A stretch of DNA of 64,000 nucleotides from Xenophilus aerolatus (lineage in GTDB: Bacteria; Pseudomonadota; Gammaproteobacteria; Burkholderiales; Burkholderiaceae_C): contig JASCNX010000002.1 in NCBI GenBank assembly GCA_029968055.1, forward strand, positions 1-64,000, read 5' to 3'. A model generated the notes under the pieces. That model was given only the letters and a program-made list of their open reading frames with translations. It searched no databases and had not been told where the DNA came from. Positions within the stretch are counted from its first letter, which is position 1. Each line of letters starts with the position of its first letter. Of the stretch, positions 1 through 19,938 are shown in pieces. The translations under genes and the position numbers were made by a program.

Positions 1-176
1 TGGTCCTGGTCCTGCCCGCGGAACTTGTAGTTGGTGGTGAGCGTGATGTTGGCGGTCAGCGGCGACGCGGCAGGTGCCGCGGCGTCGGCCGTGGCGGTCT
101 GGGCCAGGGCGGCGCCGGACGCGGTCAGGGCGACAGCCAGGAGGGCCAGCGTCGGGGCGGCGGAACGGTGCATCAT
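1..176 (-). CDS. TorF-family putative porin, N-terminal fragment
   Basis: The first 58 codons of a gene that runs off the left edge. The start (Met-Met pair at 176-171) follows a good GGAG ribosome site in the reverse strand. Residues 1 to about 25 form a signal peptide ending in an ALAQ-type cleavage site; after an Ala/Pro-rich linker the mature part begins NITLTTNYKFRGQDQ, the characteristic first strand of the TorF/CHP02001 outer-membrane proteins. That family is commonly found beside glnK-amtB and comM in Comamonadaceae, and comM is indeed the divergent neighbour here. Function of the family is not established beyond a predicted outer-membrane beta-barrel. The rest of the barrel is outside the window. 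Confidence 0.75.
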   Translation of the reverse strand, partial: MMHRSAAPTLALLAVALTASGAALAQTATADAAAPAASPLTANITLTTNYKFRGQDQD

Positions 177-401
177 CAGGAGAACTCCTCGCAAGGGTGG
201 TGGTGGGTCGATGCACCTCAAAGCAGGGAGCGTGCCAAATTGCAAGCGTCGGGGAACTTGTGCGACAGGGCCGCATCGGCGCGGGAAACCTGTGCAATCG
301 TTATAAATCGTTAGTGGATGTCGGACAGTGGGCCGGCAGGTGCCGGGGGCATGTCACGCCCAGCAGCCCCCAGATGCACCAATTCAGGGAGGAAAATCAA
401 A

Positions 402-1094
402 GTGAGTCTTTCTTTGGTGCGCAGCCGTGCGCTGTTGGGGCTCATCGCCGCCCCGGTCACCGTCGAGGTGCATCTGGCCAACGGTTTGCCCAGCTTCACG
501 CTGGTCGGGCTGGCGGACGTGGAAGTGAAGGAAGCGCGCGAACGCGTGCGCTCGGCGCTGCAGAACGCGGGCCTGGAATTTCCCCACAACCGGCGCATCA
601 CCGTGAACCTGGCGCCGGCCGACCTGCCGAAGGATTCGGGCCGCTTCGACCTGCCGATCGCGCTGGGCATCCTGGCCGCCAGTGGCCAGATCGACGCCGA
701 CCGGCTGGCCGGCCACGAATTTGCCGGCGAGCTGTCGCTGTCGGGCGAACTGCGGCCGGTGCGCGGCGCACTGGCCATGGCGCTGACGGTGCACGGCCAG
801 GACGCGGTGACGCGGCTCGTGCTGCCGATGGAAAGCGCCCGCGAGGCGGCGCTGGTGCCGGCGATCGAGGTGTATGGCGCGCGCCACCTGCTCGATGTGG
901 TGCAGCGCTTCCTGCCGCCCGATGGAGCGGCGGCGCAGGCGGCCCTGGCCGAGGGCGGCACGGACGGCTGGTCGCGCATGCCGGCGGCCACCGCCACCGA
1001 GGCGCCGGCCGGCCCGGACCTCATCGACGTGAAAGGCCACGCCGCGGCGCGGCGCGTGCTGGAGATTTCGGCGGCGGGTGCCGTCGAGGCCTGA
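402..1094 (+). pseudogene. comM: ComM/YifB Mg-chelatase-like ATPase, truncated after the N-terminal domain
   Basis: GTG start at 402 preceded by a strong GGAGGAAA ribosome site. Residues 1-227 are the well conserved N-terminal (Lon-protease-like fold) domain of ComM, a branch-migration helicase for natural transformation: SLSLVRSRALLGLIAAPVTV, then PSFTLVGLADVEVKEARERV and PKDSGRFDLPIALGILAASG. The protein stops right after LEISAAGA, just before the Walker A segment that should follow, and ends Val-Glu-Ala-stop. Only 230 of about 500 residues remain and all ATPase motifs are missing, so the gene cannot encode a working helicase. The 3' part is nowhere else in this window. At the break the DNA switches to an oppositely oriented, likewise truncated autotransporter gene. 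Confidence 0.85.
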
Positions 1095-1099
1095 CCTGC

Positions 1100-2104
1100 G
1101 GCGACGGTTTGTCTCCCGCCCCGCGTCGCGCCCTGGTTACCGATAGCCAGCGAGTCCAAGCCGGAGGCCAAAGTCTGTCCGCCCAGCGCGGTGGAATCCG
1201 CACCGGTCGCGCTGGCCTGCCGGCCCACCGCCATGGCATTGCCGCGATTGAGCCCGGCTGCGCCGGCGACTGCGCCGGAGCCGATGGCGATTGAGTCACC
1301 GCCGCTGTTGGCGAGGGCTTGCGCGCCGTTGCCAATTGCAATGTTGCTGACAGTGGATCCCGAGGAGGCCCCTGCCAATGCCGACTGGCCGATGCTGATG
1401 GCGCTGGCGCCCGTGGCTTGAGCGGACGCGCCGACGGCGATGCTTGTGTCGGCCGACGCCAGCGCGCCGTTGCCGATTGCGACGGTGCTGCTGGCAGTAA
1501 TCCCGGAGGCGGGAAATGCGGGGCGATTGGCGTTGGTGCCAATTGCCACGTTGTCCGAGCCTACGGTATTGAAGCCCGCGAAATATCCTGTCGCGACATT
1601 GTTCGAACCGACCGTGCTGGCACCCGAAAAATATCCTGAAAATGTGTTTGCGCTACCGCGCAAACCGTTGCCGGCAAAGCCACCGACAGCCGTGTTGTTG
1701 TCGCCCGAGCCGGATTGACCGCTCGCGCCGCCCAAATAAGTGTTCCAGCTGCCCGGACTGTTATTGCCCGCGTAAGTACCTAAAAAGGTGCTTTGCATGC
1801 CGGAAAGGCCGCCGTAACCGGCACCATAGCCAACCGCAGTCACATAATCGCTCGGGGCGCTCGAAGCTGCACCTACAGCCAACGAATTGGCGCCGATCGC
1901 AGAACCGCCACCCGCAGCGTATTGTTGTGCTTGCGCGATATCGGGTGCAGCGCCCAAAATCAACGACGCAAAGACCATGAGGCTTCCCAGCACCCCGGAA
2001 GGCGTGGCGCTTCGGCTGCGCTTTCCGGCCGACACGGTGAGTTCGGAAGCGGCGACCCACGCGCCAAGCGCTTCATTGAAAACTGAACGGTAATTGCGAT
2101 TCAC
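1100..2104 (-). pseudogene. Trimeric autotransporter adhesin (YadA head type), 5' part only
   Basis: Residues 1-60 are an extended signal peptide of the type seen in trimeric autotransporters (MNRNYRSVFNEALGAWVAAS, cleavage after AQAQ). From about residue 68 to 324 there are YadA-type head repeats of 14-16 residues such as SIAIGSGAVA and DSLAIGNQ, with irregular versions of the form NNTAVGGFAGN in between. After residue about 324 (near 1133) the head pattern ends. The frame stays open but runs into the antisense strand of comM down to 311, so the last 270 residues of the open frame are not adhesin. The coiled-coil stalk and C-terminal membrane anchor are missing, so no surface trimer can form. 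Coding DNA here is less GC-rich than its surroundings. The exact left limit is uncertain within about 50 bp. Confidence 0.8.
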
Positions 2105-2841
2105 GATTTTCTCTTTGAATAATTCAAGTAATTCGAACGCGTGCGGTCATCGGCGCGCAGCAAATCAATGGATGCGTGCACATGCGTCAGGGACCATGAC
2201 TCGGCAGATGGGCGGCTTGAGGCAGCGATGCTGGGTCAGAGGACGCAATCATCTTCTCCGCTAAAGCAAATGGCGTAAGGTGAAAGAATTTGTGAGTTTT
2301 GCTGCTAACAAAAGGCCTAACCGTTGCAAAAGTTCACAATTCGGCAGGCATCCTTTGTTTGCATTTCGCATTAAAAAAGTATCGGAAACTCTATAAATCT
2401 CCCAAATTGACGCAAACCGCAATTAATCAGACCGTCGGTCGGTAATTGGAGGGCGCTCGCGCGCAAGGGCTATTTCCAAAACAGACATCCAACTGGGCGC
2501 GACGCCGAGCGCGCCGCCTCGTCGAAGGCGCGGCGCGGAAAAAGGGCGAGCGGAAGCCGGCGCTCCGGCTGGGTGGCCGCAGTGTGGGAAGTGCGCGTGC
2601 CTCAGCGTGCGCAGTGCTGCAAGCGTCGAAGTCCCGCGCGGGGCTTCGACCAGTTCCGCCCGAACGGGTGAGCGGGTGCTGGGTCAGCCCCGGAGCGGGC
2701 CGTCAAGGTTCAGCCCGGACGACGTGCGAGCCGAGTCCGGAGGAAGCGACTTACGAAGCAGTTCAGACCGAGTATTTCGAGCTCAGCGCCCACGACGCTT
2801 CGACTCGGAAAGCGCCGCCCGACAGGCCCGGAACAGCCAGG
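2105..2841. other. Long intergenic region, AT-rich then GC-rich
   Basis: No convincing gene. The part nearest the adhesin (about 2105-2450) is strikingly AT-rich for this genome, with runs such as ATTAAAAAAGTATCGGAAAC, and probably holds the adhesin promoter. From about 2450 to 2841 composition returns to high GC, with a perfect hairpin at 2625-2650. Open frames in this stretch have no family-like sequence and no ribosome sites. It also serves as the 3' end of the secretion operon that finishes at 2842. Confidence 0.5.
2625..2650. repeat. Perfect 11-bp-stem hairpin, possible terminator or REP-like element
   Basis: GTCGAAGTCCC and GGGGCTTCGAC are inverted repeats separated by GCGC (one G-T type mismatch in the middle of the stem). 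It lies about 190 bp beyond the last gene of the minus-strand secretion operon. There is no T-run, so it would not be a classic intrinsic terminator. Confidence 0.45.
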
Positions 2842-3096
2842 TCAACGTGCCATGGCGAACATCACGATCAGCATCGCGATGCCGGCCACGAAGGCGACCA
2901 TGCGCACCACCCACGGCACGACCAGCCAGGCGGCGATGGCAGCGACCACCTTGCCCAGCAGGCCGGCGGTGACGACCGGCTCGCGCCGCAGCGGCACGTC
3001 GGCCGGCGCGGCAGCGACCGGGGCGCCGCAGGACGGGCAGCTCTTGGCCAGGGTCGAGACCTGGTGGCCGCATTCGGGACAGGCGATGAGGGCCAT
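2842..3096 (-). CDS. Small zinc-ribbon membrane protein
   Basis: 84 residues. The first 25 carry a zinc-ribbon with Cys6-x2-Cys9 and Cys20-x2-Cys23 (CPECGH...SCPSCGAP). After a short linker, two hydrophobic stretches (about residues 44-62 and 64-82) suggest a membrane hairpin. Last gene of the minus-strand secretion operon, 29 bp after the OmpA-type gene. Zinc-ribbon plus transmembrane proteins of this size are common and mostly uncharacterised; a role in the fibre system is inferred only from position. Confidence 0.65.
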   Translation of the reverse strand: MALIACPECGHQVSTLAKSCPSCGAPVAAAPADVPLRREPVVTAGLLGKVVAAIAAWLVVPWVVRMVAFVAGIAMLIVMFAMAR

Positions 3097-3125
3097 GGGT
3101 TCTCCGTCGGATGGGGGCCGGGCCG

Positions 3126-3836
3126 TCAGGACGCGGGCCGCGTGCCCGTCGGCTCGATGACGATCTCGACGCGCCGGTTGCGTTGCCGGCCTTCGGGGTC
3201 GTCGCTGCCGTCGGCGTGCTGGTTCGGCGCCACGGGGCGGCGCTTGCCGAGCCCATCGGTGGCGATGGTGCGGCCGTCCGCCGCCGCACGCAGGCGCTCG
3301 GCCACGGCCTGCGCACGGCGCAGCGACAGCGCGTCGTTGTAGGCCTCGCTGCCCTTCGCGTCGGTGTGGCCGCGCACGGCGACGGGTGCGTCGGCATAGC
3401 TGCGCAGCAGCTCGGCCGCCTTCGCCAGCGAACCCTGCGCGTCGGGCCGCAACTCGGCCTTGTCGAAGTCGAAGAGCACGTCGGCCGGCAGGTCGATGAC
3501 GATGGCCCGCTGCGGCGTCTCGCGCGCCCGCAGGGTGTCGAGCAGCTCGCGCGTGCGTTGCAGGCGCTCGGGCGGCACCTCGGCCAGCCGGAAGCGCGTG
3601 GCCGGTGCGCTCGCCGGCGCGAAGGTCGACGAGGCGCCTGCGGGCCCGAAGCTGCTGCCCGTGCCGGCGGCGCGCATCTCGCTGGCAGGCGCATCAGCTT
3701 GGCGCACGAAGCGGCTGGAGGTGTCGGCGAGCGGCTGGGCGCTGCGCTGCACGCGGTATTCGGCGATCGCGCTGCCGGCGGCGGCCAGGCCGCACAGCAC
3801 CGGCAGCACGCCAGCGACCGCGCGCCGGCCGCTCAT
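3126..3836 (-). CDS. OmpA-family peptidoglycan-binding protein
   Basis: 236 residues. N-terminal hydrophobic signal/anchor to about residue 25, a linker of about 95 residues without recognisable fold, then a C-terminal OmpA domain from about residue 120: DVLFDFDKAELRPDAQGSL, the peptidoglycan-contacting HTDAKGSEAYNDALSLRRA and RRVEIVIEP. Such domains bind diaminopimelate in the cell wall. The start overlaps the stop of the preceding lipoprotein gene by four bases (ATGA), so the two are translationally coupled. Within this operon it most likely ties the outer-membrane secretion complex or its product to peptidoglycan, a role inferred from context. Confidence 0.8.
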   Translation of the reverse strand: MSGRRAVAGVLPVLCGLAAAGSAIAEYRVQRSAQPLADTSSRFVRQADAPASEMRAAGTGSSFGPAGASSTFAPASAPATRFRLAEVPPERLQRTRELLDTLRARETPQRAIVIDLPADVLFDFDKAELRPDAQGSLAKAAELLRSYADAPVAVRGHTDAKGSEAYNDALSLRRAQAVAERLRAAADGRTIATDGLGKRRPVAPNQHADGSDDPEGRQRNRRVEIVIEPTGTRPAS

Positions 3837-4438
3837 GAACCGGCCGGCTTAAGCGGCAGGTCGATCGTCAGGCCGGGGCTGTTGGGGTCGTCCTGCGGGC
3901 TGCCTTCGTTGAGGACCAGCTTGACCTGGGTGGCCGAGGGCGGCACGGCGCCGAGGAAGACGAGACGGCCCTCCATCGTGTCGCCGTTCTTGATCTTGAG
4001 GTAGCGGTTGTCCTCGACGCGCTTGAGCATCAGCTTGTTGCCGTCGGCGTCCTGCAGGTAGGTGTCGCCGGAGGCCATCTGCGTCCAGTTGGTGAGCTGG
4101 CTGGCAAAGGAGGCGCTCACGGTGAGCACGGTGGCGTCGGGCCCGAGTTCGATGCCCTTGACGCGCACCGTGAGGCCCGCGCTGGCCACGCCCTGCACGG
4201 ACAGCGGCAGTTGCCGTTCGGCGGCGGGGGCTGGCGCGGGCGCTGGCGCAGGCGCTGTGGGCACATTCGACGCCACCGCCGGAGCAGGCGTGGGCGCCGC
4301 TGCCACGGGGGCCGGTGCCGGCGTCACCGCGGGCGGCGTCGCGTCGGTCGCGCGGTCGGAGCAGCCTGCAGCCAAGAGGGTCGCGGCCACGGCCAGGGCG
4401 ACCGCTGCACGGGGGGATGCGTTCGAAGCCATCGTCAT
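3833..4438 (-). CDS. Putative lipoprotein of the secretion operon
   Basis: 201 residues. Signal peptide with lipobox LLAAGC (Cys26), then an Ala/Pro linker (residues about 33-72) that would span away from the membrane, then a compact domain from about residue 75 to 201 (SVQGVASAGLTVRVKGIELG ... LTVSASFASQLTNWTQMA ... LYLQDADGNKLMLKR-like beta-rich sequence). I do not recognise the family of the domain. Its alternating hydrophobic pattern suggests a beta-sandwich. Overlaps both neighbours by four bases, so it belongs to the same transcript as the OmpA-type and small repeat protein genes. Confidence 0.65.
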   Translation of the reverse strand: MTMASNASPRAAVALAVAATLLAAGCSDRATDATPPAVTPAPAPVAAAPTPAPAVASNVPTAPAPAPAPAPAAERQLPLSVQGVASAGLTVRVKGIELGPDATVLTVSASFASQLTNWTQMASGDTYLQDADGNKLMLKRVEDNRYLKIKNGDTMEGRLVFLGAVPPSATQVKLVLNEGSPQDDPNSPGLTIDLPLKPAGS

Positions 4439-4824
4439 CGGATGTTGATGCTGTTCACGTTGGCCGCGCCCGGCTGGCCGTGGGCGCAGTCCGCATCGGC
4501 CTTGACGTCGCGCGCATTGCGGCCGGTCACGATGACCGTGCGGCCCTCGAGCGCGCGCTTGTCGACGTTGACGCTGTTCACGTTGGCGCCCTGGCCGGAG
4601 GCCGCCGTGCGTCCGTCGCCGCAGCGCACCTGGACGTTGGTCGCGGTGTTGCCGGTGATCTCGATGCGGTTGGTGCCGCGGCCGGGGTTGTCGATGACGG
4701 TGCGGTCGTCCGCCGAAGCGGCGGGTGCCGCGAGCAGGCCGCCCAGCGCGGCCAGCGCCAGGCCGGCGAGCGACGCGCGGTGCGGGGCGCGGTACGGGGC
4801 GCAGAGATGCGAGGGTCGTTGCAT
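4435..4824 (-). CDS. Small exported two-unit repeat protein with a cysteine pair
   Basis: 129 residues with a signal peptide to about residue 38 (AAPAASA). The mature part holds two units of the repeat seen in the 1166-residue protein of the same operon: RIEITGNTATNV...GANVNSVNV and TVIVTGRNARDV...AANVNSINI. Each unit carries one cysteine at the same place (VQVRCGDGRT and VKADADCAHG), which could form a disulphide in the periplasm; the other two repeat proteins lack it. Ends NVNSINIR, almost the same ending as the 122-residue protein (NVNSVNIN). No named family recognised. It is probably a minor or capping subunit secreted through the CsgG-like channel, by inference. Confidence 0.7.
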   Translation of the reverse strand: MQRPSHLCAPYRAPHRASLAGLALAALGGLLAAPAASADDRTVIDNPGRGTNRIEITGNTATNVQVRCGDGRTAASGQGANVNSVNVDKRALEGRTVIVTGRNARDVKADADCAHGQPGAANVNSINIR

Positions 4825-4834
4825 GGATGCTTCC

Positions 4835-5767
4835 TCAGGGTGTGCTGCGCGGCGTCAGGCTGTCCTGGCCCGGCAGGCCGCCCAGCGGCGATGCAGGAGC
4901 GGGCGCGGGCGGCGCGCTCTGCGCCTGCACGGCGCCCATGCCGGGCAGGCGCGAGATGTTCGCGCCGCCACCGGGGGCGGGGCCGCCGGCCGGCGCAGGC
5001 ACCACCGCCGGCCCACCGGCCGATGCGGTGCCCGGGGCAGCACCCTGGCCGCGCAGCTTGGTTTCGAGTTCGCTGGCAAAACGGTCTGCCAGCACCACCT
5101 CCTCGGCCGCCATCTCGTTGCCGAGGCTGTTGATCGTGTCGGTCGCCTGCCGGGCGCTGGCGCTGCCCGGCACGGCCAGGCGCTGCGCGAGCCGCGCATA
5201 GCCCAAGGCCTTGATGTTGTCCTGCGGCGCGCCGCGGCCGCTCTTGTAGAGCTCGCTCAGGCGCTGCATCGCCCGCGGGTCGCCGCGCACCGCGCCCAGC
5301 AGGTACCAGCGGTAGGCCTGCCCGATGTCGGACACGCCGCTGCGGTTGCTCTGGTAGGCATCGCCCAGCAGCGTGAGCAGGTTCGGGTTGTTGGTGCGCA
5401 GCGCGTCTTCCTTCAGCCGCGCGATCTCGCTGGCGTACAGCGGGCCCTGGCACCCGGCGTTGACCACGCCGCGCTCGATGGCCTGCTGGCACGATTCGAC
5501 ATAGCGTGCACCGGTATCGCCTCCCGGCGCGGCCGTGGCGCCCGCCGGCGTGACCGGCGTCGCGGCCGCGGAGGACGGCGCGCCACCGCCGCCCACGGTG
5601 ACGGTCGCGCGCGCAGCGGCCGAAGGTGCCGCGGCCCCCGTGCTGGCCGCAGCCTGCGCCCATGCCGTCGAGGCGGCCGGGCCCAGTGCCCAGGCCACGA
5701 GCGCCACCGCGGCGGTGCCGCCGCGAAGCGGCAGGCCCCAGACGTGCGACGGACGAAGCCCTGGCAT
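4835..5767 (-). CDS. Periplasmic Sel1-repeat (TPR-like) protein
   Basis: 310 residues from the ATG at 5767, which overlaps the stop of the CsgG-like gene by one base (TGATG). Signal peptide to about residue 38. An Ala/Gly linker is followed by helical Sel1-type repeats at about residues 110-225: NPNLLTLLGDAYQSNRSG, IGQAYRWYLLGAVRGDPRAM and RLSELYKSGRGAPQDNIKAL. The C-terminal quarter is Gly/Pro/Ala-rich and likely disordered. Sel1 proteins act as scaffolds for protein complexes, and a periplasmic one next to the secretion lipoprotein could gather substrate or hold the channel. An upstream in-frame ATG at 5851 would lie inside the preceding gene and is not favoured. Confidence 0.75.
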   Translation of the reverse strand: MPGLRPSHVWGLPLRGGTAAVALVAWALGPAASTAWAQAAASTGAAAPSAAARATVTVGGGGAPSSAAATPVTPAGATAAPGGDTGARYVESCQQAIERGVVNAGCQGPLYASEIARLKEDALRTNNPNLLTLLGDAYQSNRSGVSDIGQAYRWYLLGAVRGDPRAMQRLSELYKSGRGAPQDNIKALGYARLAQRLAVPGSASARQATDTINSLGNEMAAEEVVLADRFASELETKLRGQGAAPGTASAGGPAVVPAPAGGPAPGGGANISRLPGMGAVQAQSAPPAPAPASPLGGLPGQDSLTPRSTP

Positions 5768-6945
5768 CAGGTGCCCACCTTCGCAGGTGCAGCCGGTGCG
5801 CCGGCCGCGGGCGGTGCGGCCGTGCCCGCGGTCTGCGGCGGCGGGTCCCACGGCATCGGCACGCCGAAGAACAGCGGCTCGAAGCCCTTCCAGCTCAGCA
5901 CGTCGACCGTGTCGCCCAGCTGCGGGTAGCGCGTGGAATACACCCGGCGCAGCGCCTCCTTGGTCGGCTCGTCCAGCTGCTGGTTGACGGTGACGTTCTC
6001 GCCGTATTTGCGCAGCATGACCTGGATCAGGCCGACCTTCAGCTGCGGCGTCAGCCCTTCGAAGGACTTCTGCATGTTCTCGACCACCACCGGGTCGGGC
6101 ACGCCGTTGGGGATGCAGCGCCAGTACGGCGTGTTGGTGGCCTTGCCCATCAGCTCGAGCACGCTCAGGTCCACCAGCGTGCGGATCGCCGAGTGGCGCC
6201 CCTGCAGGTACTTGCCCTCGAGCTTGAAGCCGAAGGAGTCGCCGTAGAAGCCCAGGCTCGCGTTGTCCTCGGCGCTGAAGTTCAGCACCTTGATGACGTT
6301 GGAGGCCTGGATGCGCGGCACCATCTGCTGGGTGCTGAAGCTCACCAGGTTGAGGTCCAGCGCGAGCGCCGACAGGATGGCCGTGCGCTTGAAGTCCGCG
6401 CCGATGTTGGTTTCGCCCTTGCCCTTGCCGAAGTCGACGCTGGCCGAGTTGGAGCGGCCCGCGCCCGACAGCGCGCGGTCGAACTCGGTGAGCGCGCCGG
6501 TGATGAGGAAGTCCGGCATGGTCACGCCGAACTTCGCGCCCAGCTGCGCCTGCGAGATCAGGTAGTCGGGGTGGTAGGGCACGTACACGATGCGCGCGCC
6601 GATGCGGTTGACCGCTGTGCGGACCATCTCGGTGATGTCGCCCGGGATCTCCGAGCCCACCAGCGGGTTCGACAGGTTGGTCGCGTCGAGGATGTTGCGC
6701 GTCTGCATGTAGACCACCGGGTCGCCATCCTTGTAGATGTCGAGCATGTGGCCGAAGCGCCCGAGCGAGACGGCATAGCTGCTGAGGTTGGCCGTGGGCA
6801 GCTGCTTGGCGGCTTCGCGTTCGGCCAGCAGCTTGTCGGCGTCGTTCAGGGCGTTCTGGGTGGTGGCGCAGCCGGCCAGGAGGGCGGCCGTGGCGGCCAG
6901 GGCGAGCGCCCCGCGCCGCACGCGTGAAGAGGTGTGCGATGTCAT
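5767..6945 (-). CDS. CsgG/HfaB-like outer-membrane secretion lipoprotein
   Basis: 392 residues. Signal peptide with lipobox LLAGC (Cys26). The body (about residues 45-310) matches the CsgG/HfaB family: LGRFGHMLDIYKDGDPVVYM, then TEMVRTAVNRIGARIVYVPY, DFLITGALTEFDRAL, TAILSALALDLNLV and HSAIRTLVDLSVLELMGKAT. CsgG forms the nine-fold outer-membrane pore that exports curli subunits; HfaB does the equivalent for Caulobacter holdfast anchors. A peptidoglycan-binding-like helical segment follows at about residues 320-352, and a Pro/Ala tail. Flanked by a HfaA-like gene upstream and by exported repeat proteins, so its substrates are probably encoded alongside it. CsgE/CsgF homologues are not seen in the window. 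Confidence 0.85.
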   Translation of the reverse strand: MTSHTSSRVRRGALALAATAALLAGCATTQNALNDADKLLAEREAAKQLPTANLSSYAVSLGRFGHMLDIYKDGDPVVYMQTRNILDATNLSNPLVGSEIPGDITEMVRTAVNRIGARIVYVPYHPDYLISQAQLGAKFGVTMPDFLITGALTEFDRALSGAGRSNSASVDFGKGKGETNIGADFKRTAILSALALDLNLVSFSTQQMVPRIQASNVIKVLNFSAEDNASLGFYGDSFGFKLEGKYLQGRHSAIRTLVDLSVLELMGKATNTPYWRCIPNGVPDPVVVENMQKSFEGLTPQLKVGLIQVMLRKYGENVTVNQQLDEPTKEALRRVYSTRYPQLGDTVDVLSWKGFEPLFFGVPMPWDPPPQTAGTAAPPAAGAPAAPAKVGT

Positions 6946-7033
6946 TCGGTCAACCGGACAGGGAGTTGTTGTTCATGCGGGGCCGCATCACTCGGCCCCG
7001 GTTCGCCGGACGCTGCCACGCAGCGCAGCACGG

Positions 7034-7453
7034 TCACTTGCCGTTGTTCAGCACCGTGATGTTCTCCACCCCCTTGCCGTCGACGAACAGCGTCACGTTG
7101 CCACTCACGTTGCCCTGAATGGTCGGGCTCGCAATGCGCAGCTGGCCGTCGGCGCCCTGCTGCACGTTGCTGTAGTCGGTGCGGATGACCAGGTTGGTCT
7201 GGTTGGCGGGCAGCTTCAGGGTCCCGTCCGGCTGCACCAGCGCCTGCTGGTCCACCACCTTGTTCTGCTCCAGCGCGCGCGCCACCCGGGCGCGCGCCGT
7301 CACCCCGGGCGTCACGCCGTCGATGAGCTTGACGCCCGCGTCCTTGTTGTCCCGGTAGGCCCCGAGCGCCTCGCCGTAGTTGATGAGCTGGGCCGATGCC
7401 GCGCCCGACACGAGCAGCGCCAGCGCACCGATGAAGTGGGTCTTCGTCGTCAT
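7034..7453 (-). CDS. HfaA-like small exported protein
   Basis: 139 residues. ATG at 7453 with AAGGAG upstream. Signal peptide to about residue 21 (SGAASA). The mature protein has a charged middle with Asn-rich stretches and ends in a beta-type region, IQGNVSGNVTLFVDGKGVEN followed by ITVLNNGK. Size, export signal, the GNVSGNVTLFV segment and a position directly before a HfaB-like gene fit HfaA, the curlin-like holdfast-anchor subunit. The ending TVLN is shared with the last residues of the giant repeat protein (VTVLNM), which hints at a common C-terminal recognition element. The HfaA assignment is by resemblance and context, not by a search. Confidence 0.65.
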   Translation of the reverse strand: MTTKTHFIGALALLVSGAASAQLINYGEALGAYRDNKDAGVKLIDGVTPGVTARARVARALEQNKVVDQQALVQPDGTLKLPANQTNLVIRTDYSNVQQGADGQLRIASPTIQGNVSGNVTLFVDGKGVENITVLNNGK

Positions 7454-7485
7454 GATTCGCTCCTTCCGCGCGGCCCGCGCCGCCC

Positions 7486-10400
7486 TCACATGTTCAGCAC
7501 CGTGACCGCCGGTCCGACCGTCACGCTGCGGTTGACCACCCCGGTCGACGGCAGCGTCACGGTGTAGCCCGCGTTCGCTGCCCAGGGCGTGTTGCCCGTC
7601 ACCCCGGCCGCACCGGCCAGCGCGCCACCCGTGGTGCGCACGCTGCCGGTCGTCATGCCGACGCCCGCCGTGGACTGGTTGCCCACGATGGCCACCGTGC
7701 CGGTGATCACGCCGCGGTTGATGACGGAGTTGCTCGTGCCGCCTGCCATCGCCGAACCGCGGTTGCCGCTGATCACGATGTTCCCGGCCATGAGCCCATG
7801 ATTGACGACGGAGTTGACCGTGCCGCCCTGTAGGCTGGAGCCCTGGTTGCCCATGATCGCCACGCGGCCGGTGAGCGTGCCGCGGTTGTCGACGCTGTTC
7901 ACCGTGCCGCCGCCGCGCGCCTCGCCGTGGTTGCCGATGATCGCGATGTTGGCGTTCATGAGGTTGCCGCTGCCGCGGTTGTGCACGCTGTTGACCGTGC
8001 CGCCGCCGCGCGCGGACCCGGTGTTGCCCGCGATGGTGATGCTGCCCGCGCCGATGCGGCCCTGGTTGATCACGCTGTTGACCGTGCCGCCGCCCTGCGT
8101 GCTGCCCTGGTTGCCCAGCACCGTGATCTGCCCGCCGGCGAGGGTGCCGCCGTTGATCACGCTGTTGGCCACGCCGCCGCCCTGCACGCTGCCGCGGTTG
8201 CCCATGATGGCGATGCGGCTGCTGCCGATGGTGCCGCTGTTGTCCACCGAATTGATGGCGCCCTTGTGCGCCGTGCCCTGGTTGCCGGTGATCGCCACCT
8301 GCGAGCCGGCGATGCGGCCGCTGCTGCGGTTGCGCAGGCTGGCGGCGCTGGCATCCTCGCCGTCGGCCTGTGCACCGCTGCGCAGGTTGCCGGTGATGCT
8401 CACCTGCGAGCCGCTGGTGCGGCCCTCGTTGAACACGCTGTTGGCCACGGCCGTCTTGCCGTCGCGCGTGCTCACGTCGGCCGCTGAGTTGCCACTGACC
8501 GTGGTGGGCGTCCCCTCGGTGGTGGCGCCCTCGCCGACCGTCGCGCTGTTGGCCAGCGCGACGCCCTTCTCGGCCCGCACGTTGTCCGCGGTGTTGCCCA
8601 GCAACTGCATGCTGCTCGCGCGCAGCGCGCCGAGCACCTGCACCGCGTTGGCACTGGCCGCCCCCACGCCCTTGCCGATGACGGCGTGGCCCGCGATCGT
8701 GCCTTCCTTGCCTTCGCTCCGGATGTTGCCGGCGCGGTTGTCGGCCAGCGTGACGGGGCTGCCCTGCACCTCGCCCTGGCCGTTGACCGCCAGCGCGTTG
8801 GCGTTGATGCGGCCGCCGTCGGCGTCGAGCGCCTGCGCACGATTGCCCCGCACCGTGACCGGCGAGCCCGACACCCGCACGCCGTTCTCGCCCTCGAGGT
8901 ACACGCCGTTGGCCACCAGGATGCCGTTCTTCGCGTCGCCGATGCCCGCCACCTGGCCGTAGCCGCCGCCGGTGCGCACGTCGCTGGCCGTGTTGTCGGT
9001 GATCGTCACCGGGCTGCCCGCGAGGCTCGCGTCGCGGTAGCCCGCCAGCGCGTTGACCAACGCCGTGCCGCCGATGGCCGCCACCTGCGTCGCGCGGTTG
9101 TCGCGCAGCGTCAGGGCCGAGCCGCTGTCGATGCGCGTGTTCTCGTACAGCACCACCGCGTTGGTCGCGGCGCGCGCCACGCTGCGGTCGCTGAAGGCGT
9201 TGCCCGGGCCGGCCATGGAACTGGCGCCGGTGGACACCTGCGATGCCGTGTTGCCCGACAGCTGCGTGGTGGCCGACAGGCGCGAGCCGGCGCCCTCGCC
9301 CTTCTCGACGCTGACGCTGTTGGCGACCAACTTGCCGCCCTGCGCCGACAGCTCGCGTGCCGTGTTGTCGCGCAGGCTCACGCTGCCCGCATCGACGGTG
9401 GAACCGAAGACGCCCAGGCTGTTGGCCAGGGCCATCGCGTTCTGCTTCGACGAGAAGAGCAGGCCGCCCGCGGCGCTGCCCGAGAAGCCGTTGGCACGCA
9501 CGTTCTCGGCCGTGTTGCCGCCCAGGTCGATGCGCCCGTTGCGCACCGTGCCTTCGCTCACCAGTGCGCTGTTGGCGGCTGCGAGGCCACCCGAGCCCTG
9601 CACGCCGCGCGCCGTGTTGTTGCCGAGGGTGACCGGCGTGTTGTCCAGCGTGGCCTGCCTGTCCAGCGCCACGCTGTTGGCCAGCGCGCGGCCGTTGCGC
9701 TCGAACTCGCCGACGAAGCCGCCGCCGATGCTCGCGCGCCCGCCGGCCGTGTTGATGTCGGTGGCGCGGTTGTCGGTCAGGGTGATGTTGCTGCTGCGCG
9801 CGGTCGCGCTCTGCAGCCAGATGCTGTTGGCCGCGGCGGCACCGCCCACCGCCTGCACCTGGTCGGCCTGGTTGCCCGACAGCGTGTGGCGCGTGGCGCC
9901 CTGCAGTTGCCCGCCCTGCACCGAGATGCTGTTGGCCAGGGCCGCCGCCGACATCTGCACGTCGGCCAGCGCGCCCTTGAGGATCGAGCCGCTGCCGCCG
10001 CTGGCTTCGACGCGGCCGGCCTTGTTGTTCGACAGCTGCGCCTGGTACTGGCGCAGGTCGCCGCCCCGGTAGTCGGCGAGGTTCACGGTGTTGGCCAAGG
10101 CACTGCCGCCCAGCGCGCCCATGCCGTCGACCTCGTTGCCCTGCTGCGTGATGCGCGCGCCCTGGAGCTGGCTGCCGGCGGCCGTGATCGCGTTGGCCGC
10201 GGCGACGCCGGTGAGGTCGGCCTGCGCCACCGCGCCCCAGCCCGCGCCGCCCGACCCGCCGCCGGCGCGCACGTTGCGCGCCGTGTTGCGCACCTGCTGG
10301 GTCTGCAGGTCCTCGACGTTGCTGCGGGCGAGCGTGGTGCCGTTGGCGATGGCCGCGCCGCCAAGCGACGCGACGCCCTCGGCGGTGTTGTTCATGACGT

Positions 10401-10986
10401 CGACGCGCGCACGGCGCACGTCGGTCTCGTCGCTCAGCAGCCCGTTGGCCGTGGCGCGGCCGGGCAGCTGCAGCGAGCCGGCGCCGAGCAGCACGGAGGC
10501 CTTGGCACCGTTCGCCTCGATGCGCCCGGCCTGGTTGTTCTGGATGTTGACCACGCTGTCCGTGAGCGGGCGGCGGCCCGCGCCGCCGGAGATCAGCGCC
10601 GTGTTGGCCGTGGCCGCGCCGCCGATCGCGGTGACGAAGCCGGTGACCTGGTTCTGCAGCACGTTCAGCTGCGTGTTGTTCACGTCGAGTGCGGACAGGC
10701 CCACCGTGTTGGCCTGCGCCGTCGCGATGAGATCGACCGAGGCGCCCAGCCCCGCGCCCACCGTGGCCTTGCCGCCGCCGGCCGTCACCTCGGCGTTCGC
10801 CTTGTTGCCGGTCGCGCGTGCGGCGCTGTTGCCCTTGAGCTCGGTGCCGGGGCGCTGCGTGACCCAGCCCAGGCCGTGCAACACGCTCTCCTGCGCGCCC
10901 GCGGGCGGCGCCATCAGAAGCGAACTGCCGCCGCACAGTGCGGCGATCAGGGCAACGGTGTTCTTTCGTCGAAGGGACGGGGTCAC
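7486..10986 (-). CDS. Giant exported repeat protein, likely fibre or surface-layer subunit
   Basis: 1166 residues. GTG start at 10986 with GGAG upstream; signal peptide to about residue 31 (PAGA). Residues about 50-825 are nine alternating pairs of a long unit (about 48-52) and a short unit (about 34-38), both built on hydrophobic-x-hydrophobic-x-x-Asn-x-Ala-x-x-Val-x-Ala-x-Gly-Gly-x-Ala-x-Ala-Asn-Ser; examples are PVTLGNNTARGVQGSGGLAA and SVSLRDNTARELSAQGGKLV. Residues about 826-894 are two transitional units, 895-1095 seven shorter units (28-31 residues) with GNxGSxxGGGTVNSVxNxG, and the last 71 a different end closing VTVLNM. Such regular strand-turn repeats normally fold as a beta-solenoid. 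Almost no Cys or aromatic residues, many Asn, Gly, Ala, Ser. It sits 32 bp before the HfaA-like gene and is the probable main substrate of the CsgG-like channel. I recognise no described family. Confidence 0.8.
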   Translation of the reverse strand: MTPSLRRKNTVALIAALCGGSSLLMAPPAGAQESVLHGLGWVTQRPGTELKGNSAARATGNKANAEVTAGGGKATVGAGLGASVDLIATAQANTVGLSALDVNNTQLNVLQNQVTGFVTAIGGAATANTALISGGAGRRPLTDSVVNIQNNQAGRIEANGAKASVLLGAGSLQLPGRATANGLLSDETDVRRARVDVMNNTAEGVASLGGAAIANGTTLARSNVEDLQTQQVRNTARNVRAGGGSGGAGWGAVAQADLTGVAAANAITAAGSQLQGARITQQGNEVDGMGALGGSALANTVNLADYRGGDLRQYQAQLSNNKAGRVEASGGSGSILKGALADVQMSAAALANSISVQGGQLQGATRHTLSGNQADQVQAVGGAAAANSIWLQSATARSSNITLTDNRATDINTAGGRASIGGGFVGEFERNGRALANSVALDRQATLDNTPVTLGNNTARGVQGSGGLAAANSALVSEGTVRNGRIDLGGNTAENVRANGFSGSAAGGLLFSSKQNAMALANSLGVFGSTVDAGSVSLRDNTARELSAQGGKLVANSVSVEKGEGAGSRLSATTQLSGNTASQVSTGASSMAGPGNAFSDRSVARAATNAVVLYENTRIDSGSALTLRDNRATQVAAIGGTALVNALAGYRDASLAGSPVTITDNTASDVRTGGGYGQVAGIGDAKNGILVANGVYLEGENGVRVSGSPVTVRGNRAQALDADGGRINANALAVNGQGEVQGSPVTLADNRAGNIRSEGKEGTIAGHAVIGKGVGAASANAVQVLGALRASSMQLLGNTADNVRAEKGVALANSATVGEGATTEGTPTTVSGNSAADVSTRDGKTAVANSVFNEGRTSGSQVSITGNLRSGAQADGEDASAASLRNRSSGRIAGSQVAITGNQGTAHKGAINSVDNSGTIGSSRIAIMGNRGSVQGGGVANSVINGGTLAGGQITVLGNQGSTQGGGTVNSVINQGRIGAGSITIAGNTGSARGGGTVNSVHNRGSGNLMNANIAIIGNHGEARGGGTVNSVDNRGTLTGRVAIMGNQGSSLQGGTVNSVVNHGLMAGNIVISGNRGSAMAGGTSNSVINRGVITGTVAIVGNQSTAGVGMTTGSVRTTGGALAGAAGVTGNTPWAANAGYTVTLPSTGVVNRSVTVGPAVTVLNM
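7702..8304 (-). repeat. C-terminal array of seven 28-31-residue units
   Basis: Coding tandem repeat inside the giant protein. Units read like GQITVLGNQGSTQGGGTVNS and GSITIAGNTGSARGGGTVNS; the block GGGTVNSV recurs almost unchanged in three neighbouring units at the DNA level (the reverse strand of gttgaccgtgccgccgccgc). These units lack the Val-x-Ala-x-Gly-Gly middle strand of the N-terminal units and are much more alike than those are, suggesting recent duplication. Confidence 0.8.
8512..10839 (-). repeat. Nine long-short unit pairs in the giant repeat protein
   Basis: Diverged coding repeats. Short units have the pattern x-L-x-x-N-x-A-x-x-V-x-A-x-G-G-x-A-x-A-N-S; long units carry 12-16 extra residues between the Gly-Gly and the Ala-Asn-Ser, often beginning Gly-Ser or Ala-Ser (for example SGGSGSILKGALADVQMSAA). 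The strict long-short order holds for all pairs that I could delimit by eye. Confidence 0.75.
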
Positions 10987-11114
10987 AGCGGTCTCCGTGG
11001 GTCAGGACGGGTGATGAGGCTCACCCCGTCCACAGTGGCCGGCACGCATGCAGCGCCGGCGGCGGTCGATGCGCGCGGCACCGCAGGCTGCGGGCCGCCG
11101 CTCGCCGGGCGCGC

Positions 11115-11483
11115 TCAGTTGATGTTGACGCTGTTGACGTTGGCGGTGCCGCCGATGGCCTTGACGTTGGTCGCCTCGTTGCCGCTGATGGTGATGTCGC
11201 TGTCCTTGACCTTCGAGCCGGTGATGTTCACGGTGTTGACGTTGGCCATGCCGGTCATGCTGACGTTGGCGCCGACCTTCAGCACGCCCGCTTCGCCGCC
11301 GCCGGCCAGCACGTCGCGCGCCTTGTTGTTGCTCACGGTGATGCGGGTGTTGGTCACTTCGGAGCCCAGCGAACCGTTGGCCTTGCCCACGCCCGGGATG
11401 CTGATGGCGCCGCTCTGTGCGAAGGCGGTGCTCGAGAGGGCGGCGACGAGCGCAACGGCGCCGGCTGCAACGAATTTCTTCAT
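11115..11483 (-). CDS. Small exported protein: a single long-short repeat pair
   Basis: 122 residues; ATG at 11483 with AGGAG eight bases upstream. Signal peptide to about residue 23 (SSTAFAQ). The mature chain holds one long unit (RITVSNNKARDVLAGGGEAG ... GMANVNTVNITGSKVKDS) and one short unit (DITISGNEATNVKAIGGTAN followed by VNSVNIN), matching the unit pair repeated nine times in the giant protein next door. First gene of the minus-strand secretion operon, 128 bp before the giant gene. It may be a nucleator, minor subunit, or the founding form from which the giant gene grew by duplication; which of these cannot be told from sequence. Confidence 0.75.
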   Translation of the reverse strand: MKKFVAAGAVALVAALSSTAFAQSGAISIPGVGKANGSLGSEVTNTRITVSNNKARDVLAGGGEAGVLKVGANVSMTGMANVNTVNITGSKVKDSDITISGNEATNVKAIGGTANVNSVNIN

Positions 11484-12023
11484 GTGTTCACTCCTGGTAG
11501 ATGCGAAAGATGGAAGGTGTTGAAGCGCGGTCCGGTGCGGACCACGAAGCGCAATCTACCGACGCGACGTGACATGGCCTGCCTTATTTGTAAGTCGCTG
11601 TTGAGGTCACGCCTGCTTACGAAATCATGCGTGCCGGACAGCGATGCGTGAAATTTCTCGCACTTCCCGATGCAGCTGTCGGAACTTTCAGCGAGCGCTC
11701 ACACATCGTTCCGAATGTCTTTCGGGGCTCTTTTTAGTAGGAAGGTGTGCACTGATGGCCGGCGCAACGTAGCGTGTGGGACGTATCGCACAAGCCGAGC
11801 GGCCCAGGGCTGTCAAGGCCATTCGTCGCACCTGCAACCGAAAGCAAGCCCCTGTGCGCGAGGTGTCGAAACATCGATTCACAAACACGGCCCGGTGCCG
11901 GGCGTGCTCGTCGGACTGGTCTGACAAGGTGCACGCGCTCACTCGCAGACACTCGGGTCCCTTTCAGCTTCCGGTACCCACTTCATGCGCTTCCGACTCC
12001 CCTCTTCCGCCCTGCCGACATCG
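11484..12023. promoter_or_regulatory. Divergent intergenic region, presumed promoter of the secretion operon
   Basis: 540 bp between the first gene of the secretion operon (minus strand) and a lipoprotein gene (plus strand). Less GC-rich than the coding DNA, with no believable gene. It should contain promoters for both sides, but I could not pick out a confident -35/-10 pair or operator. Confidence 0.4.
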
Positions 12024-12647
12024 ATGCGAATTGCGCGCAAGGCGCTGCTGGGCGCGGGCCTGGCAGCCGCCCTGGCGCTGAGCGCCTGCAAGGACGGCGC
12101 GGGCGCCGGGGCCACGGGCGCGAGCGGCATCCGCTTCCCGGACGACGCGCAGATCACGCAGGCGCTGCAGGCCAACTTCGGCGAAGACCCGAACAACGCC
12201 AAGGCGCGCGAACTGATCCAGGTGCTGGGGGGCGAGAAGGGCCAGCTCGACTACAAGATCCGCCGCGTGATCTGGCGCCAGGGCGCCTTCGAGGCGCAGT
12301 ACGACGTGAGCCTGAAGATGGGCCAGCCCGGTGCCCTGAGCCTGCAGAAGCTCTACGCGACGATGGTGCCGAAGGACGAAGCGGCCAAGCTGCCCGAGCA
12401 GACCCTGCAGGCCTACGAGGACTGGCTCAAGAACAACGCCGCCACGCTCGAGAAGAGCAACCCGCAGCAGGCGCAGGCGCTGCGCGCCAGCCTCGAGAGC
12501 CTGGGCAAGTGCTACCGCGAGGCCAAGCCCGACGACCGCGTGGCACTGATGAACGGGCTGGGCGCGCTGATCTCGCCGGCGCGCGAAGGCTGGTACGCCG
12601 ACCGGCTGCAGACGCCCAGCGTGGAGCTGCGCTGCCTGCCCCTGTAG
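12024..12647 (+). CDS. Putative lipoprotein of unknown function
   Basis: 207 residues from the ATG at 12024; an earlier ATG at 11985 would add 13 residues before the signal. Signal peptide MRIARKALLGAGLAAALALS with a lipobox-like ALSAC. The mature part is hydrophilic and mostly helical: DDAQITQALQANFGEDPNNA, then ELIQVLGGEKGQLDYKIRRV, with two further cysteines (LGKCYRE and ELRCLPL) that could pair. No family recognised. Single gene reading away from the secretion operon, convergent with the FAH gene. Confidence 0.6.
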   Translation: MRIARKALLGAGLAAALALSACKDGAGAGATGASGIRFPDDAQITQALQANFGEDPNNAKARELIQVLGGEKGQLDYKIRRVIWRQGAFEAQYDVSLKMGQPGALSLQKLYATMVPKDEAAKLPEQTLQAYEDWLKNNAATLEKSNPQQAQALRASLESLGKCYREAKPDDRVALMNGLGALISPAREGWYADRLQTPSVELRCLPL

Positions 12648-12671
12648 AAAGAGGCTCCTGCCGCGAACGGC

Positions 12672-13865
12672 TCAGCGCAGCAGCCCGCGGCCGGCGAGGT
12701 TGCGCATCAGCGCGCCGATGCCGAAGTCCCAGCGCGGCGCCTCGTGCGCATGCACGACGCGGTTGACCAGCGCGCCCAGCTCGGGCGCGGCGATGGTCAC
12801 GCGGTCGCCCACCACATGCGTGAAGCCCTGGCCGGGGCCGTGGCGGTCCTGCGTGGGCGCGAACATGGTGCCCAGGAAGAGCATCAGCCCGTCGGGGTAG
12901 GCATGGTGCGCTCCGATGGCCTGGGCCACGAGGTCGAGCGGGTCGCGGCTGATCTTCGCGAGCGAGCTGCTGCCTTCCATCACGAAGCCTTCGGGTCCCT
13001 CGACCTTCAGCGCCACGGTGATGCGGCGCACGTCGTCGATGCCGAAGTGCGCATCGAACAGCCGCACGAAGGGGCCGATGGCGCAGGAGGCGTTGTTGTC
13101 CTTGGCCTTGCCCAGCAGCAGCGCGCTGCGGCCCTCGATGTCGCGCAGGTTGACGTCGTTGCCCAGCGCGGCGCCGACCACGCGGCCGCGGCTGTCGATC
13201 GCCAGCACGACCTCGGGCTCGGGGTTGTTCCACACCGACTTGGCAAGGATGCCCACGTCGGCCCCCATGCCCACCGCCGCGAGCACCGGCGCCTTGGTGA
13301 AGATCTCCGCGTCGGGGCCGATGCCGACCTCGAGGTACTGCGACCACGCGTTCTGCGCGATCAGCACCTCCTTGACCTTCGCCGCCTGCGGCGAGCCGGG
13401 CACGATGCCGGCGAGGTTGTCGCCCAGCACCTGCGACAGGCCGGCGCGGATCGTTTCGGCCCTGGACGCATCGCCGCGCGCCTGCTCCTCGATCACGCGC
13501 TCGAGCAGGCTCGCCACGAAGGTGACGCCGCTGGCCTTGACGGCCTGCAGGTCGCAGGGCGCGAGCAGCCAGGGCTGCGCATCGTCGCGCGCAGCGGCGT
13601 CGCTGTTGCGCAGCGCCGCGGCCAGCGTCGCGATGCGCGGTGCCTCGCCGGCTTCGAGCACACGCCGCACCGCGGCGGCCGGGTCGTCCTGTTCGAACAG
13701 CTCGCTGGCCGTGGGCGCCAGGGCCGACAGGTCGTGCAGCGCGTCGCCGTGCACGGCCACCAGCACCGGGCCGACGCCGGGCTGCCAGAGCCGGCCCACG
13801 AGGGCGGCACGTCCGGCGTCCTGCGGCAGGCTGCGGGTGGGGTCGAGGGGCGTGGGCGCGGTCAT
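12672..13865 (-). CDS. Fumarylacetoacetate hydrolase family protein
   Basis: 397 residues. Start at 13865 (MTAPTPLDP) or four codons earlier at 13877. The C-terminal two thirds has the FAH fold: YLEVGIGPDAEIFTKAPVLA, the Glu-x-Glu metal ligands in NNPEPEVVLAI, GRSALLLGKAKDNNASCAIG and GDRVTIAAPELGALVNRVV. Enzymes of this superfamily cleave or dehydrate 2-oxo or 3-oxo acids using a divalent metal. It is the last gene of the nicotinate-degradation operon, 116 bp after the dehydrogenase gene, so a substrate derived from 2-formylglutarate is possible but not shown. Related long-form FAH proteins also act on sugar acids. Confidence 0.75.
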   Translation of the reverse strand: MTAPTPLDPTRSLPQDAGRAALVGRLWQPGVGPVLVAVHGDALHDLSALAPTASELFEQDDPAAAVRRVLEAGEAPRIATLAAALRNSDAAARDDAQPWLLAPCDLQAVKASGVTFVASLLERVIEEQARGDASRAETIRAGLSQVLGDNLAGIVPGSPQAAKVKEVLIAQNAWSQYLEVGIGPDAEIFTKAPVLAAVGMGADVGILAKSVWNNPEPEVVLAIDSRGRVVGAALGNDVNLRDIEGRSALLLGKAKDNNASCAIGPFVRLFDAHFGIDDVRRITVALKVEGPEGFVMEGSSSLAKISRDPLDLVAQAIGAHHAYPDGLMLFLGTMFAPTQDRHGPGQGFTHVVGDRVTIAAPELGALVNRVVHAHEAPRWDFGIGALMRNLAGRGLLR

Positions 13866-13981
13866 CGGTGTCTCCATGTCGTGAAGGCCGGAGTGTCGCC
13901 GCAGCGCCGTTGCCGCGGCGGGCGTTTCGATGACTGCGCACGCGGCGGGCGCCGCAGTCCGGCGCGCGGCCCGGAACGCCG

Positions 13982-16900
13982 TCAGCGCGCCGGTGCGCCG
14001 TGCCCCGGCGCCCCGCGCACGCGGGCCACCTGCGCCGGCAGGTCGGTCCATGGCGCGGCCTGCGGCGCGAAGCGCGCGCGCATGTAGCCGGCCAGTTCGG
14101 CGATCTGCATGTCGCTCAAGGCCTCGCGGAAGGGGGGCATGAAGCCGAGGTCCTTCGCCGCGGGCTCCCGCACGCCGTCGAGGATGGTGCGGATGAGGTT
14201 GTCGGGTCGGTCGCTGGCCAGCTGGCTGTTGAGCGCGAGCGGCGTGTTCACGCCCAGCAGCGTCGGGCCGTCGCCATCGTGGTGGCAGGCGGCGCAGGCC
14301 ATCTCGAACATGCGCTGCGGCGCGCCGAGCAGCTGGCCCTGGCGCGCCGCGGCGGCCTGCACCACGGCCTGCGCCCGCCGCTGCGGGTCGGGCGCCGGCG
14401 CGGGGTTGAAGGACGCGAGGTACGTGGCCATGGCGCGGATGTCGGCGTCGGACACCTGCTGCAGCTCGCGCACCACCTGCGCCATCGGCCCGCCCGCGAC
14501 GCCATGCCGCGGCGAATGGCCGTGGCGCAGGTAGGCGTACAGCGCATCGGCGTCCCAGGGAACGGGCGACGTCGACAGCGCCGTGAGCGCCGGCGCTTCC
14601 CAGCCGTCGATGGTGGCGCCGGCGAGGAAGGCGTTGCCGCCCCGCTCCGCACCGAGCGCATTGCGCGGCGTGTGGCAGGCGCCGCAGTGGCCCAGGCCGT
14701 TGACGAGGTAGGCGCCCCGGTTCCACTCGGCGCTCCGCGTTGCGACGGGCACGTAGGGCGTCGCGTCATGGAACAACGCATTCCAGCCCGCCATCAAGGG
14801 CCGCAGGTTGAAGGGGAAGCGCAGGTCGTTGGCGGGCAGGATGGCGGGCGAGCCGTCCTCCCTCGCCCCCGCCTTCACCGCGGGCAGCGACTGCAGGTAC
14901 GCGTACAGCGCCTGCAGGTCGTCGTCGCTGGTCTTCGCGAACGCGGTGTACGGGAAGGCCGGGTAGAGGTGCCGGCCATCGCGCGAAATGCCCTCGCGCA
15001 TCGCGCGCTGGAAGGCCGTGAAGGACCAGCGGCCCAGGCCCGTCTCGGGGTCGGGGGTGAGGTTGGTGGTGTGCAGGGTGCCGAAGGGCGTTTCCATCGC
15101 CCGGCCACCGGCGTTGGGCGTGCCGCCCGGCGCGGTGTGGCACACGGCGCAGTCGCCCAGCGCGGCGAGCTGGCGTCCGCGTTCGATGGTCTCGGCGCTG
15201 TAGGCCGGTGCATTGAAGGACACGGGCGCGATGGCAGGCCGCCACCCGAGCAGGCCGGCAATGGCGCCGAGGCCGCCGAGGACCAGCGCCGCACCGGTCG
15301 CCCACAGGCCCTTGCGGCGCGGCAGCGGCGCGTCGGCCGGCAGCGCGCGTGCCGGAGCGGGCAGTGCCTGCGGCGCATCGTCGCGCGCCGCCGACTCGTT
15401 CGCGGGCGGCAGCGGATTGAGCGCAGCACGCACCACCTCGGGCGTGAAGGGTGGCGAGCGGAAGCGCACCCCGGTCGCATCGAAGATCGCATTGGCGATC
15501 GCCGCCGTGCCGGGCACCGAGGCCGACTCGCCGGCGCCCAGCGGCGGCTCGCCGGGGCGCGGCATCTGCAGCACCTCGACCACCGGCACCTCGCGGAAGC
15601 TGAGGATCGGGTAGCTGCCCCATTCGCGGTTCGCCACCACGCCCTGCGGCAGCACGCCGGGCAGTTGCGCGTTCGCTGCAGCGGCGCCCGCAGGCGACGC
15701 GGGCGCGAACTGCACCTGCTCCTTCAGGGCGCGGCTGGTGGTCTGCAGCACGTTGCCGTGGACCTGGTGCTCGACGCCCGCGGGGTTGATGGTCAGGCCC
15801 GCATCGTGGCCCACCACCACGCGGCGCACATGCACCTCGCCCGTCCTGCGGTTGACCTCCACGTCGGCCACCCACGCGGCCCAGGCGGCGCCGAAGCCGG
15901 GCCACTTGCTGTGGATGTAGCGCGCGTAGGCGAAGCCTTGCCCGAAAAGGATGTCGCCGCCCAGCCCCAAGCCGCCATCGGCGTTCTCCTGCGGCCCGCT
16001 GCGCATGCGCCAGCCGGCCTTCTGCGCCGTGGCCTGCACGAGTTCGACGGCGCGCGGGTCGTCGAGGTGGCGCAGGCGGAACTGCACCGGGTCCACGCCC
16101 GCGGCGGTGGCCAGCTCGTCGATGAAGGACTCGTGCGCGAAGGAGTTCGGCAAGGCCGACACGCCGCGCAGCCACGAGGCGCGCACGATGGGCGCCATGT
16201 CGTTGACCTTGACCCGCAGGTGCTCGTAGGCGTAGGGCGGGCGCGCGGTGCGGTCGCCCATCTCGTAGGCGTGCGGCTGCGCGTCGACGGTGCCGGTGAG
16301 CAGCAGCGCCAGCGTGGGCGCACCGTTGCTGGGGTAGGAGGTCTCGAAGTCGTAGGCGCCGATGCCGCCCTCGGGCGACAGCGCACCGGCCACCGTCATG
16401 AGCTGCGCCGTGCCCTTGGGCTCCCACGCATGCTCCTGCTCGCGCGTGAGCTGCACGCGCACCGGCGCGCCGACGGCGCGTGCCAGCAGCGCAGCGTCGG
16501 CCGCCACGTCGTCGGCGCCGTTGCGGCCGTAGCAGCCGGCCGCCTCCATGCGCACGACGTCGACCTCGAGGTCCTGCACGCCCACGAGCTTCGCGAGGTC
16601 CGCCCGCAGCACATGCGGGTTCTGCGAGCCCGCCCAAACGCGCAAGCGCGCGCCCCCACGCTCCCCCGCTTCGCGCGGTCCGCTGGACGAGACGGCGTCA
16701 GAGACGCCGTCCCTTCGCGCTGTCCCGCTTCGCGCAGGCGAAGCGGGAGCCGCAGCGCTCAGCCCCTCGGGGGCGCTCGCCCCTGGCCCCGGCCCAGGCG
16801 GGGCGGCCGATCCTGCGGATCGGGGGCTCGGCGCAGTTGGCTCCTCCAGCCAATGCGCGACAGCGCAGGACGGCCCGATCGACGCATGCAGCTGGTACGG

Positions 16901-18396: not shown

Positions 18397-18403
18397 GTCG
18401 CGT

Positions 18404-19120: not shown

Positions 19121-19180
19121 GGAAAAGCCCTCCGGGGTTGGAATGGATCTGTGGAGGCCGCGGGACGACGAAGGCGGTGC

Positions 19181-19915: not shown

Positions 19916-19938
19916 GGATGGCTCAAGGGCTCTGAAAG

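Follow-up and report, generated by a model that had tools for sequence, protein, structure and literature searches.

What does a bacterium build with a CsgG/HfaB-like channel lipoprotein that is encoded among exported repeat proteins of no named family? The question is raised by a locus in the window, the stretch of 64,000 nucleotides from Xenophilus aerolatus that was analyzed here. An earlier note had described nine minus-strand genes with overlaps or short gaps, and this layout held. Nine open reading frames (A–I) were confirmed at 2842–11483, all on the minus strand and transcribed in the order A, B, C, D, E, F, G, H, I. The widest intergenic gap lies between A and B (128 bp), followed by C-D (88 bp), B-C (32 bp), H-I (29 bp), and E-F (10 bp); D and E overlap by 1 base, and F-G and G-H by 4 each. 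Signal-peptide and lipoprotein assignments for the locus proteins were made by reading the sequences. A Pfam scan gave no match over the cut-off for A, B, C, D, F, or G. No promoter was found in a scan of 2300–12700, and terminator predictions in the same interval were at chance level (6 vs. 5.9). RNA structure in the A-B gap was not unusual (z -0.95), no RNA element was found with Rfam at the gathering threshold in positions 1–20000, and motif conservation upstream of A across 32 sequences showed nothing convincing.

The cluster has a tenth member, X1 (11985–12647, plus strand), a divergent gene for a predicted lipoprotein of 220 aa. It was divergent and adjoined A in 32 of the 33 loci found in a scan of named genomes (tblastn), the exception, L061, being a 3.4 kb contig without A; a profile search detected it in all eight further close loci (L031–L038) as well. 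Identity of X1 drops to 31–34% in L080–L082, and no meaningful match was found in Pfam. The remaining flanking genes tested recur in only 8, 7, 5, and 0 of the 33 named loci. The gene near 12672 presumably encodes a fumarylacetoacetate-hydrolase-type protein. X1 lay outside the earlier description, as did the probable C-terminal domain of D and a wider set of loci with HfaB-like, peptidoglycan-binding (PG-binding), and DUF4384 domains and other repeat proteins, both of which are treated below.

The ten-gene cluster is real and is conserved in relatives of Acidovorax and Variovorax. The 33 named loci were found in Xenophilus, Variovorax, Pseudacidovorax, Xylophilus, Acidovorax, Ottowia, Diaphorobacter, and Vandammella, and in unplaced MAGs or strains. 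Comamonadaceae membership was confirmed for five of these locus-bearing genera; Variovorax, Acidovorax, and Xylophilus are taken here to belong to that family. D of the window is 98–99% identical to D of Xenophilus aerolatus and its near relatives. Genes A to I were complete in 25 named loci, counting L075, in which E is split over two frames, the reading of H is over-long, and the gene order is unclear. Four loci (L064, L080–L082) had A to H without I, which was not found there although those contigs run on, and four (L055, L057, L061, L065) were interrupted by contig ends. Among the eight close loci L031–L038, single-sequence searches detected all nine genes in six, with F missing from L034 and I from L038; F of L034 was recovered with profiles built from the window and L031–L038, i.e., partly from the loci searched.

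Further away the gene set was no longer detected. A search with D matched 32 of 150 genomes of the family, nine at an identity of at least 65% (own genome counted) and 23 at only 24–30%. Twelve distant loci were read (L039–L050, of 30 distant places); A, B, C, E, F, G, and I were undetected in all 12, and an OmpA gene was found in one. Seven further distant loci (L116–L122) yielded none of A, B, C, F, G, or I; four of them have an OmpA gene and one a Sel1-type match. A plasmid collection yielded one distant D-like match, from Azospirillum (27.5% identity, annotated DUF4384). A literature search of open-licence papers found no description of this locus.

The putative channel protein D (5767–6945, 392 aa) carries a predicted lipoprotein-type signal and, by profile comparison, is a remote member of the HfaB branch of the CsgG superfamily. 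Its alignment, made from the window and 28 of the 33 named loci (L052, L054, L055, L060, and L061 left out), matched an HfaB profile in hhalign at 95.5% (E 1.6e-8, 27% identity, 245 columns). The best of 20 column shuffles reached 1.2% and the other locus proteins 0.1–11.8%. The CsgG/HfaB-like lipoprotein of the earlier note was thus recovered, although Pfam CsgG (PF03783) gave no match to D in its own genome. With the same Pfam model an HfaB scores 59 bits and a distant D relative (L116) 18 bits, under the cut-off. The NCBIfam HfaB model scored D at E 0.0016 and 17.7 bits, far under its cut-off of 300, and the HfaB family model found no match in the own genome. Searches of the PDB with the D sequence and with the D profile gave no matches. 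The AlphaFold monomer of D (pLDDT 44) was too poor to use except near 291–363; this C-terminal tail (about 291–363) probably resembles a peptidoglycan-binding domain.

Three exported proteins, namely the giant B (7486–10986, 1166 aa) and the small A (11115–11483, 122 aa) and F (4435–4824, 129 aa), bear Sec-type signals, as read, and share a common repeat. B starts with 85-residue long-short super-repeats and continues with 28/29-residue coils. The best lag over the whole of B was 85 with a score of -0.18, compared with a mean of -0.36 and a maximum of -0.27 for the best lags of 100 shuffles; residues 850–1110 alone scored 0.81 at lag 28. Structure prediction returned one continuous long β-helix (pLDDT 79) with a loop every 86 residues, and in this model B consists of parallel β-strands stacked in coils. 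The top structural matches presumably belong to right-handed β-helix families, and among the 50 matches listed many bind or process polysaccharide (tailspikes, polygalacturonases, alginate epimerases). It has been noted, in the available part of one source, that shallow alignments can yield the wrong hand in predicted β-solenoids (PMC10192328). A PDB search with the B profile gave no matches. The alignment of B comprised the window and 26 of the 33 named loci. It excluded L057, where B is truncated, and L081, where B has masked letters, as well as five near-identical or cut loci (L052, L054, L055, L060, and L061). The 160 invariant positions of B include 45 Asn, although Asn makes up 8.7% of B; G, N, or A occupy 121, and only H367, E561, R605, D620, and R651 are charged or His.

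The small proteins were tied to B by profile comparisons of A, B, C, and F, which left out L055, L057, L061, L065, and rows with masked letters or of odd length. A matched F at 98.1% (hhalign, E 1e-13) and B at 97.8% (E 9e-13; A 39–119 against B 228–311), and the direct F-B comparison reached only 27.6%. On these alignments A corresponds to one long-short unit of B, and F is a small relative. Among the named loci 29 F genes were read, and in all of them two Cys follow an NRI motif. Searches of Pfam and NCBIfam returned no name for A, B, or F. The earlier note had not recognized the large long-short repeat protein and its two miniatures from any described curli, Fap, or holdfast locus; the lag analysis, hhalign, and the family searches agree with this view.

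The occurrence of these repeats follows that of D. Among 150 family genomes the B profile matched nine, and these were exactly the ones that carry a close D; among 300 order genomes it matched four, again exactly the ones whose D scored above 100 bits. Scoring covered at most four (family) or two (order) candidate places per genome. Whether homologues of the repeat proteins always lie beside a channel gene had been posed as a check, and they were found in the same genomes as close D. Two outcomes had been named as refuting, that the repeat family is already named with another export route and that homologues mostly lack a channel neighbor; neither was encountered in the samples searched. In the fourth of the matched order genomes (G311, locus L115) the match is a single miniature A-like gene (E 5.8e-8 by the A profile), whose neighbors are a close D (3e-115), an OmpA gene (2e-9), and a weak C-like gene (E 0.0037). 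The giant B was looked for in this genome and was not found; on this evidence A is more likely than B to be the ancestral subunit.

Of the accessory genes, C (7034–7453, 139 aa) encodes a small exported protein that is present in 33 of 33 named loci; across 274 genomes of the class its profile matched the own genome only. E (4835–5767, 310 aa) is a predicted exported protein with a single Sel1 match. The Sel1 assignment made earlier stands in that the match is present, but it is weak (Pfam 1.2e-4, 22.9 bits, under the curated cut-off of 30.7). G (3833–4438, 201 aa) is a predicted lipoprotein, with Cys 26 of its lipobox-like stretch invariant across 11 sequences; an immunoglobulin-like fold, suspected from reading, was dropped after no Pfam or PDB match of weight was found. 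The OmpA-type and zinc-ribbon readings were both upheld by Pfam. H (3126–3836, 236 aa) is an exported OmpA-family peptidoglycan-binding protein (1.1e-16) and I (2842–3096, 84 aa) a small zinc-ribbon membrane protein (1.5e-7), which is absent from some loci.

We propose, with confidence that is evenly balanced, that the locus is a wall-tied HfaB-type export-and-anchor machine that would assemble β-solenoid subunits at the cell surface, export and fibers being the conjectural parts. The proposal draws on the preserved locus content and the co-occurrence of A/B-type repeats with close D; from the match of D to HfaB, the peptidoglycan-binding-like tail of D, and the homology of A, B, and F; on the β-helix model of B with its structural matches and Asn-rich invariant positions; and on the gene set of G311. 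D would make an outer-membrane pore, tethered to the wall by its own tail and by H. A, B, and F would traverse this pore unfolded and then fold outside the cell. With a β-helix rise of 4.8 Angstrom per coil, B could fold into a rod of ~29 coils and about 14 nm and serve as scaffold or nucleator. A, probably too short for a stable helix alone, may stack on the open edge of B and extend the fiber; the two-cysteine F might start or terminate it. C, E, G, and X1 would escort the subunits in place of CsgE/CsgF/CsgC. In the available text of two reports, curlin subunits of as many as 22 repeats are believed to undergo secretion in an unfolded state (PMC3521004), and open-ended β-solenoids polymerize via strand stacking at their edges (PMC10192328).

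A more specific version, which we hold at slightly less than even confidence, is that of a distinct Comamonadaceae organelle in which a wall-tethered HfaB-type pore exports a non-curlin β-helix rod of ~29 coils together with miniature copies of its repeat that stack on it to grow a fiber, and which arose from a smaller G311-like, miniature-only ancestor. Should the export-and-anchor reading be right, a different β-helix family would join curlin and holdfast subunits among the cargoes of CsgG/HfaB-type export. The giant scaffold and its single-unit copy would form a natural pair with which scaffolded fiber growth becomes testable, and the ten named genes could be deleted singly in environmental bacteria.

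It is possible, but rather unlikely, that the product is a holdfast-like anchor and not a fiber. B, A, and F would then be surface rods that bind a secreted polysaccharide and fix it to the outer membrane, and D and H would hold this complex at the wall. HfaA and HfaD help fix holdfast polysaccharide to the outer membrane. An anchor would suit the kinship of D, whose closest relative is the holdfast anchor protein HfaB, the many proteins that bind or process polysaccharide among the 50 listed structural matches of B, and the presence of one clear and one probable wall-binding part. B and A, however, show no homology to HfaD or HfaA, and the common β-helix fold tells little about the ligand.

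Retention of the repeat proteins inside the cell is improbable. They would stay in the periplasm as rods between the outer membrane and peptidoglycan, anchored by D and H; reading of the sequences revealed Sec-type signals only, H binds the wall and D probably does so, and a rod of ~14 nm would roughly fit the periplasm, as we infer. Against this, HfaB, the nearest studied relative of D, is needed for the outer-membrane targeting of its partners, according to the available part of the source (PMC6707917), and the related D-like loci likewise adjoin signal-bearing repeat proteins. Least probable is that B is a secreted β-helix enzyme or soluble adhesin with A and F as regulators or cofactors and not structural units. 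The structural matches listed for B are full of such enzymes and adhesins, but its invariant positions are mostly G, N, or A with five charged or His among them, and an A-like gene occurs in G311 without a detected B.

Three systems come closest to the locus. The Caulobacter holdfast HfaABD has a channel lipoprotein of the same branch as D, adjoined by small exported partners. It differs from the present locus in having three anchor genes, compared with ten here, and D adds the probable peptidoglycan-binding-like tail. No HfaA or HfaD homologue was detected at the present locus with comparison profiles of 27 HfaA and 27 HfaD sequences (one HfaD being a 35-residue fragment). The HfaA-like label originally given to C was rejected (hhalign 21.8%, alignment confined to signal-peptide residues). 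A reached 34.4% against HfaA, aligned at the N-terminal region only. B was likewise rejected as HfaD (0.9%), and the HfaD profile gave 1.7% with A, 0.3% with F, and 1.7% with C.

Curli (CsgA–G) share with the locus a CsgG-superfamily channel and β-solenoid repeat subunits, which are predicted here. The absence of CsgE and CsgF had been proposed earlier; neither was found in the own genome, nor were curlin repeats (PF07012), with E. coli controls positive for all three. By these tests of sequence the present locus is not a curli system. The repeats here measure 28/29, 34/35, and 50 residues, compared with 23 +/- 5 in CsgA, and long curli subunits of 4 to 62 repeats are known, as given in the accessible part of PMC10192328. 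Burkholderiales also have true curli systems, of which one survey gives two (PMC3521004, in the part available).

The 24–30% relatives of D are HfaB-like/PG_binding_1/DUF4384 proteins of Burkholderiales with loci of their own, for which no name was found in the searches made. Their channel protein is related to D (hhalign 99.9%, E 7e-34, 375 columns) and has a PG_binding_1-type tail; in the loci read, an exported repeat protein and a small exported protein are encoded upstream, and one locus (L041) also has a Sel1 protein. Unlike D, the channel protein bears an extra DUF4384 domain (five of five scanned), and the apparent cargo is curlin-like repeat proteins, not the A/B type. These loci suggest that the same exporter branch has further uncharacterized cargoes in Burkholderiales.

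The start of the window, which is also an end of the contig, contains a gene junction (311-2104). A comM-like gene (318-1094, plus strand) ends abruptly there and lies tail to tail with a minus-strand gene portion, running from 2104, that corresponds to the N-terminus of a YadA-like autotransporter; both names were assigned by reading. Intact comM was observed at the corresponding place in four named loci (L051, L053, L056, and L064). The junction may reflect a deletion, the scar of an insertion, or a join made during assembly.

A short collagen-like run of the Gly-Pro-Val type was detected at the start of the small exported repeat protein F in 10 of the 29 F genes read (loci L064, L068, L069, L072-L077, and L079).

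The locus of the order-level relative G311 (L115, 9252-19687) was also found to encode a DUF2807 protein, as well as a two-partner transporter of the ShlB type. It contains further genes that resemble, by reading only, a WD40-caspase combination and a sigma factor of the ECF type. A second, distant type of locus, HfaB-like/PG_binding_1/DUF4384 with curlin-like repeat proteins, is present in Burkholderiales (L039-L050 and L116-L122); some of these loci are located near response-regulator, OmpA, or caspase-like genes (regulators and caspase named by reading).
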